DNA of 64,000 nucleotides from positions 124,001-188,000 of IMG/VR virus record IMGVR_UViG_3300050821_002122; one strand, given 5' to 3'. Every line of letters begins with the position of its first letter. Position 1 is the stretch's first letter. The position numbers and the translations under genes were made by a program. Of the stretch, positions 1 through 3,998 are shown piece after piece. The stretch is from a virus. The notes under the pieces were generated by a model. The model was not told the DNA's origin, did no database searches, and saw nothing but the letters and a program-made list of their open reading frames with translations.

Positions 1-351
1 CCTGTTATAGTTTAGCCGCATACCACTAAGTTCAGAGCCGTAAGTCAACGCCCAGGCGACTGGATTTGTCAGATCGCAGTCGCCCTCATAAAGCATGGTG
101 AGCATTTCCCTAACAACGTCTTGAACTTGGATTTCGCTGGCAGCCCAGAATATGAAATTTAGGACTTCATGTTCAAAAATAACGAACCGCGGGCTAGAGG
201 CACCCGCAGCAAGTGCAACGGTAATACGAGTATTAGCCCACGGGCTAACCAACTCGTCAACGAACAGCATGTAAATCTGTTGGTTCAAATGGTCCGATAT
301 ATAAATCCTGTCTACCTCTACCTGTTCTATGCTGTAGCGGCTTCCTTGCAT
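1..351 (-). CDS. Hypothetical protein, truncated by the window edge
   Basis: Reading leftward from the ATG at 351, 117 codons stay open to the window edge, so the C-terminus is missing. A GGAG ribosome site lies 5 bases before the ATG. The start overlaps the last 25 bases of the DNA polymerase gene, so the two are probably translationally coupled. Nothing in the visible part identifies a family; it is mixed alpha/beta in composition with an aromatic-rich middle. Confidence 0.75.
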   Translation of the reverse strand, partial: MQGSRYSIEQVEVDRIYISDHLNQQIYMLFVDELVSPWANTRITVALAAGASSPRFVIFEHEVLNFIFWAASEIQVQDVVREMLTMLYEGDCDLTNPVAWALTYGSELSGMRLNYNR

Positions 352-3300
352 TTAGACTCCTTGCCCTTATGAATGTAGATTGGCCGGATAGCTTCTACAA
401 TCTGCTTGTCCAGGTCGCTCACATTCAGTAGAGGATAATGTTTTTGTAGCCAATGACGGCATTTTTTATTAGCCCAAGGTTTGAAGATTTCTTGTAGCAC
501 ATCCTGTTCGGTTCTACCATCAGCCAACAGGCCAAGCTCTGCCGCTTCTTTTATAGAAGCCTGTATGCCAGAAACAATACTAGGTAAAGACCAATCCCAC
601 TTATGAGTAATGTCATCACGCGCCCCAAACTCCAACTCGATCTCAGGCTCTACCGGAAACTTGAAGTTGAATTCACGTTCGTAGGCCTCAGTTACACCGT
701 AAGTTGCACACCACTGGAGAATATGTGCATATGGAATAACCATAGCATACGGCACCGAATAGTAGTTCGCATCGTGAACGGCTCGATTGTACGGCACACG
801 TAACGACCATGCGTCATATTCAATACCCAGCAGTTCGCAAATCTGAGGCAAACGTTTGTAATAGTGTTCCATAATGATGCGACCAGCTTTGACGCCAATC
901 TCGGATGCCCAACCTTGGATTGGGGCATTGGAACCTCTACGCACTTGCTGCGCAATGATCTTCTTATCGCCCGTCATTGCAGCGAATAGGTGACGAATAC
1001 GACCGATTGGCGAGAATACGATGTACAGTTCTTCCGCCATCTTTTTCGTCTTGTTGGTCCAAGCACCAGCCTTCTTGAACTCAGCAAAGATTTTGTCGAT
1101 AAGACCTTGAGCGAACGGTGTGCGATCCTCCGCCAGCAAGTCCTTTAACTTCTTCTCGGCCTCAGCAGCCACCTTAGCAGGTGTCTCTTTGTTGCCAATC
1201 GTTGACATCAGTTCCAGCTTATCACCAGTCTTCGTGTCTTCGCCCAAGGTGGCCGCAGACTTACCGTAAATCAGACCGAAGATAATAGCCTTAATCGCAT
1301 CACGAAGGGGATGGTCTTTATCCACGATCTTGTTTAGCAACCGCTTCACGTTCAGGATATGGATATCACCGCGCAACTTTATATCAGCTAAAGCCTTTAC
1401 ACTTGGATGGCGGTAATCACCATCATCTTCGGCCATTGAATACATACCATCATTTGCGAATTCTGCATGATACTTCTTCGCAGCTTTGACGTAGGCCTTA
1501 TGTGCCAATTCTTGTGAGCCAAAGACACCTAAGTGCTTTACCTTTTTACGTGGACTCGGTTTTATCTGTGCTACCCAACTGCCTGCTTTCGGCCCAGGAT
1601 AAACACCTTTGTAACCAGAGCTAGTTTTTGTGGAATCAGTTCTGCGGTTTCTTGAATTCTCCAACCTAGTTGCTGGTCGTAGATTATTAATGCGATTGTT
1701 AAACGGATTGTTGTCTTTGTGGTCTACTTCAACTGGAAGGTACCCGTAAACCAGCAAAAAGGCTATTCTATGTGCTCTATACAACTCACCATTTAGGGAT
1801 AGGTACCACGAATCTTTACGTTTGGAGCCTGCCACACTTCCTATAGGTGTATTGCGGCTGCGAGCTTGTTTCCAGGTGAATTTTCCACTATCTGGGTCGT
1901 AAATAAACCACTCATCCATGAGTTTTTTTAGGTCTTTATCTTCTTGCGGAATACCAGGGATAGCTATATATGCCTGCCGCAATTTCTGACCAATGCGGAA
2001 AATACCAGCCAGCACATCGTCAAGTCCAACGTAAGACCACACACGTACCTCATGCGCGGAATAATCGTAACGCATGAGCAGATAGCCCTTAGGCGTAATG
2101 AACATGTGCTTGATGATCTTGGCCAATTTACCACGAGATGGAATCGTTTGCAAGCTTGGGTTCTTCGATGCCAGTCGCCCTGTAGCGACATCGAAATACG
2201 AATAGTCGGGTCGCAGATGATGGTCTTCAATACTGTCCGCATTAGAGCGGAGTTTTTTCAGCCAACCCTTAGCATAGGTGCCCAGCAGCTTAGAGAGTTT
2301 CGAGTAATCACCGTAGGCTGCTACGACCTGATTCTTATCCTTGTTGGCGGCAACAAAGGCTTTGTCGACCGACGATTCACCCTGCTTGGTCGTGTTGACC
2401 GGCTCGTAACCCATGACATCGAAGAATAGAGTACGCAAGTGATTACCCTTGCTAAGACTCAATGCCCAATTCAATGCCTTGGCTCTCGCTTTGCCGAACA
2501 GTCCTTTGGTTTTCAAACCGCTCTTAGCAAGTATGATATCGTTTGCCTTCACCGCCTCCGGGAACACACGGAATGCATTGCTGAGATTTTTCATCTCAGT
2601 ACGAAGCGGACTTTCTGTGGAGGTGAGATACTTCAGGTACTTCGCATCTATCAAGGACCCATCTTCGCGCAGGTGACTCAGTTGATGGACGGTATCGGAC
2701 ATTTGGTACTGCATATGACGTACGAAATACTCACCATAAGGCTTACCATCGATCAGCTGGTGATCTGCCATCTTGATCTGTTCTTGGCGCATTGCGAGAA
2801 TCGATACTACGTCCATGGCGGCATAGCGCAAGAAGTGCTTGTCGTTGGGCTTGATGTTACCGCAAGTGTTGCGATCTTCCTTGCTGAACTTCGTAGTCTC
2901 GCGGTAGTAGAAGTCGTTGCGATAGCTGCATAGCACAGCAGCCAAGTTACCTGGCTTTGATCCGAAGTTCGACAGCTCGACGATATTTTCATCGAGGTCA
3001 TGCTCACCCGCGATGATATCCCATGCGCGGTGTAGAATGATTGGTATCTTGAAATAGCGACGTATGACTCGCAGATCGTAGGGACCGTTAAAGAACACAA
3101 ACTCTTTAAGACCCTTCTTTTCTGCCTCACTGAAAAATGCCTTCAGTTCACGGCGTATGTATGCAAGTTCCTCTTTGGTCCACGGTGTCATTGGGTGGCT
3201 CAATGGAAGCACGTACCCGACGTCGGGATTCAATTCGGTGGCGAACTGCATCGTGTAGATTTTATTGAAGTGGACTGAGAGGTCTTTAGTCTCCGTATCC

Positions 3301-3998
3301 AATGCAATAGTCTTCGACTTGCGCAGGCGTACCATCAGCTTGTCGAATAATTCTATGGTGCCGATGTACTTAGGTTTAGGTTCCACGTGACCAATGTCAT
3401 GCGGATGTTTACCCAGCAATAGATTGTTCAAGTGTCTGCACCAGAAGCCCAGCAGATTGGCATACTTACCGTCTTTCTCCAACAATCGGCTGAAGTCCAA
3501 CGTCGATACGACTTTCAACTTCAGATCATGCGACTTGAGGTCATGGACCCATCCGCGCTTGTAGGTATGCTTCTCTACCTGCGGCCACATAGCGTTCATG
3601 GCTTCGTCACCGGAGACCAGTACATGCGTCGGCTGTAGTTTCTCAATAAGCTTGTGCATGTGGGCAGCGAACTCAAGTTCTGCTTGCTTGCGGGCTTTGC
3701 CCTTCAGGTGAAGGTGCCGTTTCTGATTGAAGTTCGCTACTGCGTAAGAAGCCTCGGCTGCACCTTCTTTGTAGGAGCGCACAATACCCCTGGTATACTT
3801 GATCGCGTTCTTGAATGCTGTGTTGACATTGCGGTCTTGAAGCAACCCTCGTGCTTTGAGATCGCGGCCGTCAACCGTTTGTAGGCATACCAGTACGCGC
3901 TTCTTACTTTGCTTCCAGTCAGAGCAACGAGGCATATGCAGATTGTATGCGTCCTCGTCCTCATATGGAAACTTGAATGTGGTCTCAAGCATATGCAC
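327..3998 (-). CDS. Family A DNA polymerase with 3'-5' exonuclease and an in-frame HNH-AP2 endonuclease insertion
   Basis: Replicative phage DNA polymerase, 1223 residues, unusually long for the family. Proofreading exonuclease motifs are seen in order: DTET near residue 233, NGPYDL near 305 and YAAMD near 393. Polymerase motif A (DYSAHEVR) lies near residue 646 and motif B (R-x3-K-x3-F-x3-YG as RDAIKAIIFGLIYG) near 900. Motif C reads VHDA near 1074, where most relatives have HDE. Between motifs A and B, about residues 683-850 form a complete HNH-AP2 homing endonuclease: DPDSGKFTWK start, VDHKDNN core, then an AP2-like SGYKGV...GVF segment. No intein splicing blocks are visible. The first 210 residues may be a uracil-glycosylase-like domain, as in some phage polymerases, but this is weak. 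The ATG at 3998 lies 20 bases downstream of an AGTAAATA box and after a terminator, so this gene probably starts its own transcript. Confidence 0.95.
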   Translation of the reverse strand: MHMLETTFKFPYEDEDAYNLHMPRCSDWKQSKKRVLVCLQTVDGRDLKARGLLQDRNVNTAFKNAIKYTRGIVRSYKEGAAEASYAVANFNQKRHLHLKGKARKQAELEFAAHMHKLIEKLQPTHVLVSGDEAMNAMWPQVEKHTYKRGWVHDLKSHDLKLKVVSTLDFSRLLEKDGKYANLLGFWCRHLNNLLLGKHPHDIGHVEPKPKYIGTIELFDKLMVRLRKSKTIALDTETKDLSVHFNKIYTMQFATELNPDVGYVLPLSHPMTPWTKEELAYIRRELKAFFSEAEKKGLKEFVFFNGPYDLRVIRRYFKIPIILHRAWDIIAGEHDLDENIVELSNFGSKPGNLAAVLCSYRNDFYYRETTKFSKEDRNTCGNIKPNDKHFLRYAAMDVVSILAMRQEQIKMADHQLIDGKPYGEYFVRHMQYQMSDTVHQLSHLREDGSLIDAKYLKYLTSTESPLRTEMKNLSNAFRVFPEAVKANDIILAKSGLKTKGLFGKARAKALNWALSLSKGNHLRTLFFDVMGYEPVNTTKQGESSVDKAFVAANKDKNQVVAAYGDYSKLSKLLGTYAKGWLKKLRSNADSIEDHHLRPDYSYFDVATGRLASKNPSLQTIPSRGKLAKIIKHMFITPKGYLLMRYDYSAHEVRVWSYVGLDDVLAGIFRIGQKLRQAYIAIPGIPQEDKDLKKLMDEWFIYDPDSGKFTWKQARSRNTPIGSVAGSKRKDSWYLSLNGELYRAHRIAFLLVYGYLPVEVDHKDNNPFNNRINNLRPATRLENSRNRRTDSTKTSSGYKGVYPGPKAGSWVAQIKPSPRKKVKHLGVFGSQELAHKAYVKAAKKYHAEFANDGMYSMAEDDGDYRHPSVKALADIKLRGDIHILNVKRLLNKIVDKDHPLRDAIKAIIFGLIYGKSAATLGEDTKTGDKLELMSTIGNKETPAKVAAEAEKKLKDLLAEDRTPFAQGLIDKIFAEFKKAGAWTNKTKKMAEELYIVFSPIGRIRHLFAAMTGDKKIIAQQVRRGSNAPIQGWASEIGVKAGRIIMEHYYKRLPQICELLGIEYDAWSLRVPYNRAVHDANYYSVPYAMVIPYAHILQWCATYGVTEAYEREFNFKFPVEPEIELEFGARDDITHKWDWSLPSIVSGIQASIKEAAELGLLADGRTEQDVLQEIFKPWANKKCRHWLQKHYPLLNVSDLDKQIVEAIRPIYIHKGKESKCKEAATA

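Follow-up and report, generated by a model that had tools for sequence, protein, structure and literature searches.

A homing endonuclease can persist in an essential gene through splicing, as in introns and inteins, can sit at an intergenic site, or can split a gene whose halves then reassemble. Phage DNA polymerase genes, such as those of SPO1 and Bastille, are well known to carry group I introns with HNH endonucleases (PMC11878797). Split genes with homing endonucleases occur in T4-like phages, as in gene 43 of Aeromonas phage 25, nrdA of Aeh1, and T4 gene 60 (PMC2988022). Two further elements lie in actinobacteriophage DNA methylases: ShiLan, in which the HNH endonuclease is out of frame with the host protein and the distribution is patchy, and a lone LAGLIDADG insertion, which has no detectable splicing element and a vertical distribution (PMC11855218). 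Free-standing HNH-AP2 enzymes of phages (IPA-HNH or HNN-AP2; PMC10448857, PMC2248197) often adjoin polymerase genes (29%; PMC10448857).

Here we describe a window of 64,000 nucleotides (positions 124,001–188,000 of the 189.7-kb virus record IMGVR_UViG_3300050821_002122) in which an HNH-AP2 enzyme is embedded in the reading frame of a family A DNA polymerase. Like the introns of SPO1 and Bastille, it places an HNH enzyme inside a phage polymerase gene, and its nuclease half resembles I-HmuI; unlike them, the insert has no ribozyme or splicing element that we could find, and its DNA-binding part is AP2 and not NUMOD-type. As in the T4-like split genes, the endonuclease is kept inside an essential gene without splicing, with a product that would still assemble, but the products are separate polypeptides there and a single predicted chain here. 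Both methylase elements share with our locus an endonuclease-bearing insertion in a phage gene, with no internal stop and no detectable intron or intein (PMC11855218). The HNH endonuclease is, however, out of frame in ShiLan and in frame here, and the methylases are non-essential, whereas no DNA polymerase besides the host protein was found in our record. The lone LAGLIDADG insertion is a nearer parallel than ShiLan, but it belongs to another nuclease family. Compared with the free-standing HNH-AP2 enzymes, the window copy has the same domains, length and conserved residues; they have their own start and stop and end at FANHG, while the window copy has neither start nor stop and runs into polymerase sequence at both ends.

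Phage methylases have already provided examples of endonucleases that are lone and in frame, or hidden; what is new here is an in-frame endonuclease as part of an essential polymerase, with two examples at a single site. Within our partial coverage of the literature no account of an in-frame HNH-AP2 enzyme inside a DNA polymerase came to light, an absence that is weak evidence. The locus indicates a further route of survival, with the endonuclease kept as a domain in the protein, in a tolerant loop of the only DNA polymerase found in the record.

An HNH-AP2 enzyme in the polymerase frame

All features of the window described here lie on the minus strand. The polymerase ORF (327..3998; 1223 aa, with a GTG start as called) encodes a family A DNA polymerase with a 3'-5' exonuclease domain and is open throughout. 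In Pfam, DNA_pol_A, the 3'-5' exonuclease, HNH_3 and AP2 are all matched in the one frame from 3998 to 327, which bears out the initial annotation of a full HNH-AP2 endonuclease that lies in frame between motifs A and B and returns to polymerase sequence without a stop. The catalytic motifs of polymerase and exonuclease are all present in the fused ORF. Specifically, it contains motif A (DYSAHEVR, residues 645–652; 2043..2066), motif B in the O-helix (RDAIKAIIFGLIYG, residues 899–912; 1263..1304), motif C (VHDA, residues 1074–1077; 768..779), and the exonuclease motifs DTET, NGPYDLR and YAAMDVVS (residues 234–399; 2802..3299). Motifs A, B and C and the polymerase fold (Z 31.3 to 4dsj) place the protein in family A. 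Elsewhere in the 189.7-kb record, which may be incomplete, we detected no DNA polymerase of family A or B and no Pol III alpha. The nearest isolated phages by polymerase are the jumbo phages BcepSaruman, BcepSauron and Achromobacter phage Motura (46–52% identity), and none of their polymerases has such an insert.

The polymerase alignment, used as a query, retrieved 47 viral loci, of which 44 contain most of the polymerase. Alignment with insert-free polymerases, as the initial annotation had proposed, sets the insert at residues 680–863 (1410..1961; 552 nt, 184 codons), with a border uncertain by 1–3 codons. By aligned columns it sits between LRQAYIA and HPS, the native loop being whole on both sides, and thus between motif A and the O-helix of the fingers. 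In family A polymerases this loop, which precedes the conserved GDIH, is known to lie at the base of the fingers, before the O-helix. The distance from motif A (DYS) to GDxH is 48 residues in uninserted relatives and 232 in the window, a difference of exactly 184; it is 235 in locus L010, 94 in L019 and L028, and 48 in nearly all others. Because the closest relatives (L011 and L030, 63–64% identity) have an uninterrupted, full native loop, the insert is a clean addition. The absence of the insert from these relatives also goes against an ancient, conserved part of the polymerase, the case that the initial annotation had named as speaking against recent invasion.

The insert contains an HNH_3 nuclease motif (residues 740–783; 1650..1781; Pfam E 1.4e-13), in which H743, D759, H760, N768, N772, N781 and N784 are kept, followed by an AP2 DNA-binding domain (residues 794–845; 1464..1619). 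This is the domain order of an HNH-AP2 homing endonuclease. The AP2 domain scores 28.2 bits in Pfam, below the cut-off of 33.3 bits, and is supported by a later structure match (Z 8.6 to the WRI1 AP2 domain, 7wq5). After FANDG, a C-terminal linker (residues 852–863; 1410..1445) is modelled as disordered and leads into the polymerase; the linker sequence is MYSMAEDDGDYR in the window, and L010 has a similar one, VISLATGEVDCT. The span first given for the insert, 1445–1960, covers the nuclease, but the 12-codon linker (1445–1410) has to be added, so that the insert runs from 1961 to 1410. Likewise, the view that the endonuclease uses the inserted length fully holds for about 486 of the 552 nt, the other ~66 nt being not nuclease.

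In extent, the insert equals a whole free-standing HNH-AP2 enzyme. Free-standing enzymes start ~10–15 residues before Y(D/N)PxTG and end at FANHG. Of the conserved HNH-AP2 positions, 31/36 are kept in the insert, near the rate of free-standing enzymes; for conserved residues, the two inserts keep 86% and 81%, compared with a mean of 89% in free-standing enzymes. Because these positions are kept at about the free-standing rate, the nuclease, judged by its sequence, does not look decayed. The base composition of the insert differs from that of its host gene. Its GC3 (0.38) is below that of any segment of 552 nt taken from the gene outside the insert (mean 0.57, minimum 0.435); the L010 insert is also low (0.46, compared with 0.68 and 0.59).

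The insert is not arranged as a free-standing gene, having no stop of its own at its end and no good ribosome site before M694. We therefore rejected a separate nuclease made from an internal start, for which M694 lacks a clear ribosome site and no stop follows the nuclease. The L010 insert has no Met at the position matching M694. Among ~150 HNH-AP2 ORFs in other contigs, only that of L010 (represented by three locus ids) continues in frame at both ends into polymerase, which rules out chance read-through; most of those examined reach a stop within 11 residues of the match.

A second insertion and the history of the loop

In the second case, L010 (IMGVR_UViG_3300047557_001921), an HNH-AP2 enzyme interrupts the polymerase without loss of frame, at the very residue that bears the insert in the window. 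The two inserts are 52% identical over 178 residues, while the polymerase regions are 43% identical. In trees of 95 and 133 HNH-AP2 enzymes, the two inserts are sisters (SH-aLRT 99). In the polymerase tree, the window groups with the insert-free L011 and L030 (support 99), and L010 lies outside 25 polymerases. A forced clade of the window and L010 polymerases is rejected (lnL difference 99, AU p 1.5e-16). The path length between the two inserts is 0.7–0.8, compared with ~2.3 between the polymerases; these values were summed from trees under different models and are only indicative.

Because the inserts are sisters while a clade of their host polymerases is rejected, transfer by homing is indicated. 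The simplest history of these sequences would be that the element was transferred to one and the same site in each of two lineages, the outcome expected of homing. Recent homing is not directly visible, because only two inserted alleles are known and they are 52% identical. The presence of the same site in two host lineages makes the case open to experimental test. The initial annotation described neither this second case, at the matching residue of a distant polymerase, nor the further invasions of the loop.

Single-sequence queries for close relatives gave no matches or weak ones only, a search of genome contigs with the insert alignment gave no relative, and the fusion is absent among the matches listed from isolated phages (50,697 records). 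The own genome of the window contains a second HNH-AP2 gene outside the window (L008:1459-1989; G000:C1 ~118949-119440), which is free-standing, encodes 176 aa, is 31% identical to the insert, and overlaps the end of a 334-aa ORF.

In a further relative, L021, the same loop holds a different homing endonuclease (phrog_3339) as a separate ORF (L021:6105-7270). Here the polymerase stops at the loop, and the N-terminal part of the polymerase, the endonuclease and the C-terminal part of the polymerase overlap by ATGA on both sides. L021 is thus a split gene, with the host gene broken into separate ORFs, and it represents the split form at the loop that is fused in the window. In sister lineages of L021 the loop is longer by up to 46 residues, and the L021 loop halves align to this extension. 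The loop is thus a hot spot, and it marks a place in the fingers of family A polymerases where insertion occurs naturally.

The polymerases of L009, L010, L032, L039 and L100 are encoded in two ORFs, broken at another loop between motifs B and C; the junctions of L010, L032 and L039 have tight or overlapping stop and start codons. The polymerases of these two-ORF relatives look, by sequence, like naturally two-chain family A enzymes. A tolerated domain insertion in the polymerase of this clade is plausible, since its polymerases tolerate breaks and additions in surface loops. The breaks lie at L010:6885-6935, L032:6305-6330, L039:6310-6345, L009:6255-6915 and L100:3375-4450, and in L009 and L100 unrelated small ORFs lie between the polymerase halves.

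Splicing, structure models and the fate of the insert

No match to a group I or group II intron or to another RNA family was obtained with Rfam in the first 6 kb of the window (E<=5) or in L010 (E<=1), and at relaxed thresholds no intron or RNA element was found at the insert site in L021, L046, L056 or L006. When the group I model (RF00028) was run against the own genome, it gave only a sub-threshold candidate, ~19 kb from the insert; this candidate (G000:C1:106471-106744, L187; 21.3 bits, E 2.9e-4) is on the minus strand and outside the window. At the insert no ribozyme core is found, and the RNA of the insert folds into no more structure than its shuffles (z +1.07). With ~66 nt free, the initial statement that there is no room for a group I core holds. 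Group I introns can escape covariance models, and in some cases the ribozyme is undetected on one side (PMC11878797).

An intein was considered and rejected: Pfam finds no Hint splicing domain, and the insert ends in ...DYR before HPS, not in HN-(C/S/T). The initial annotation was therefore also right that intein splicing blocks are missing. Nor does the window have a split-gene arrangement, being one open frame with no stop and start. Because no RNA or intein element was found, the frame has no stop codon, and an internal ribosome site that would convince is missing, one polypeptide is the default reading of the sequence. The first reading, an unspliced in-frame HNH-AP2 enzyme in the polymerase, is thus supported at this level.

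The polymerase part (residues 425–1208, with the insert) was modelled with a mean pLDDT of 79. The predicted model matches the Bst, M. smegmatis and Klenow polymerases (Z ~30), with ~400 aligned residues that flank the insert on either side; for Bst Pol, Z is 31.3 with 405 residues aligned, again on both sides. The HNH half has low confidence in the fusion model, in which only one homologue is aligned there. When the insert is modelled alone with 20 relatives, the block means are 90–98 over most of the first 160 residues, falling once to 75 where one domain gives way to the other, and the tail is disordered. The nuclease half of this model matches I-HmuI (Z 5.7, 81 residues), and the remainder matches plant AP2 domains (Z 8.6), in agreement with the profile search.

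We consider it probable that an essential polymerase here bears, in a loop that permits it, a homing endonuclease that persists by being translated as part of the protein and is not spliced out. A complete HNH-AP2 homing endonuclease gene would have inserted at a single codon position of the polymerase gene, one that falls in a permissive surface loop where the fingers begin. Having lost its own start and stop context, it would now be read in frame, unspliced, as a polymerase domain. The polymerase would fold around the inserted domain, with its flexible linker at the C side and its nuclease residues kept, and would stay active. The domain would then nick or cut insert-free polymerase alleles of co-infecting phages, and repair would copy it into them. 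We infer that the ORF is translated as one protein, that the polymerase is active, and that cleavage and homing take place; the nuclease is probably a permanent extra domain of an essential enzyme. Much more speculative, and improbable in our view, is a self-contained homing machine, namely a nickase tethered to a polymerase that could extend from its nick. If it existed, one protein would carry out both cleavage of the rival allele and repair synthesis, and a selfish domain would be a stable, functional part of the replisome.

The HNH-AP2 enzyme might instead no longer home and serve the polymerase as an accessory domain, for example as a DNA-binding processivity aid or in replication nicking. 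The retention of nuclease and AP2 residues nearly as in free-standing enzymes, the presence of the module in two diverged polymerases, and the DNA-binding nature of the AP2 fold are what such domestication would lead one to expect. We nevertheless regard it as unlikely, given the patchy distribution of the insert (it is absent from all other relatives examined, the closest included), the disagreement between insert tree and host tree, and the foreign base composition. A single insertion in the common ancestor of the L010 and window polymerases would likewise make the inserts sisters, by vertical descent. Because L010 branches outside 25 polymerases, however, it would need about seven independent, exact losses, each restoring the 48-residue loop, and the inserts are less diverged than the polymerases; we judge this history very unlikely.

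It is also doubtful, and distinctly improbable, that the insert is removed to give a normal polymerase, whether as an unrecognised minimal intron, by ribosome bypassing, or by proteolytic or protein splicing. HNH-bearing introns are common in phage polymerase genes (PMC11878797), and an unspliced insertion could be costly in an essential enzyme. Against removal stand the occupation of most of the insert by the nuclease, the lack of an RNA family match, of excess structure, of an intein domain and of an HN-(C/S/T) end, and the frame, which is kept without a stop codon in both cases. The record is of environmental origin, as would suit a broken gene or an assembly artefact, but another sample yielded a second contig in which the arrangement recurs at the identical residue, and all motifs are intact, so we give this explanation almost no credence. 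The reading that we favour thus remains that of a homing endonuclease kept as a polymerase domain.

Other interruptions of the polymerase gene

Several relatives have their polymerase gene interrupted at other positions. In L046 (5800-6800) and L056 (3200-4100), an HNH ORF interrupts the polymerase just before motif A, after GRTSASNPR. In L046 the polymerase resumes exactly at NLQQVPSR; this looks like an intron, yet has no Rfam match. Intein-like insertions are present in the polymerase genes of L040 (5909-6480), in frame at motif A, and of L052 (4900-5560), near exonuclease motif III. In BcepSauron (L005:425-1000), an HNH ORF lies directly upstream of the polymerase. Its sister BcepSaruman (L001), with a nearly identical polymerase, lacks this ORF, which suggests a recent gain or loss.
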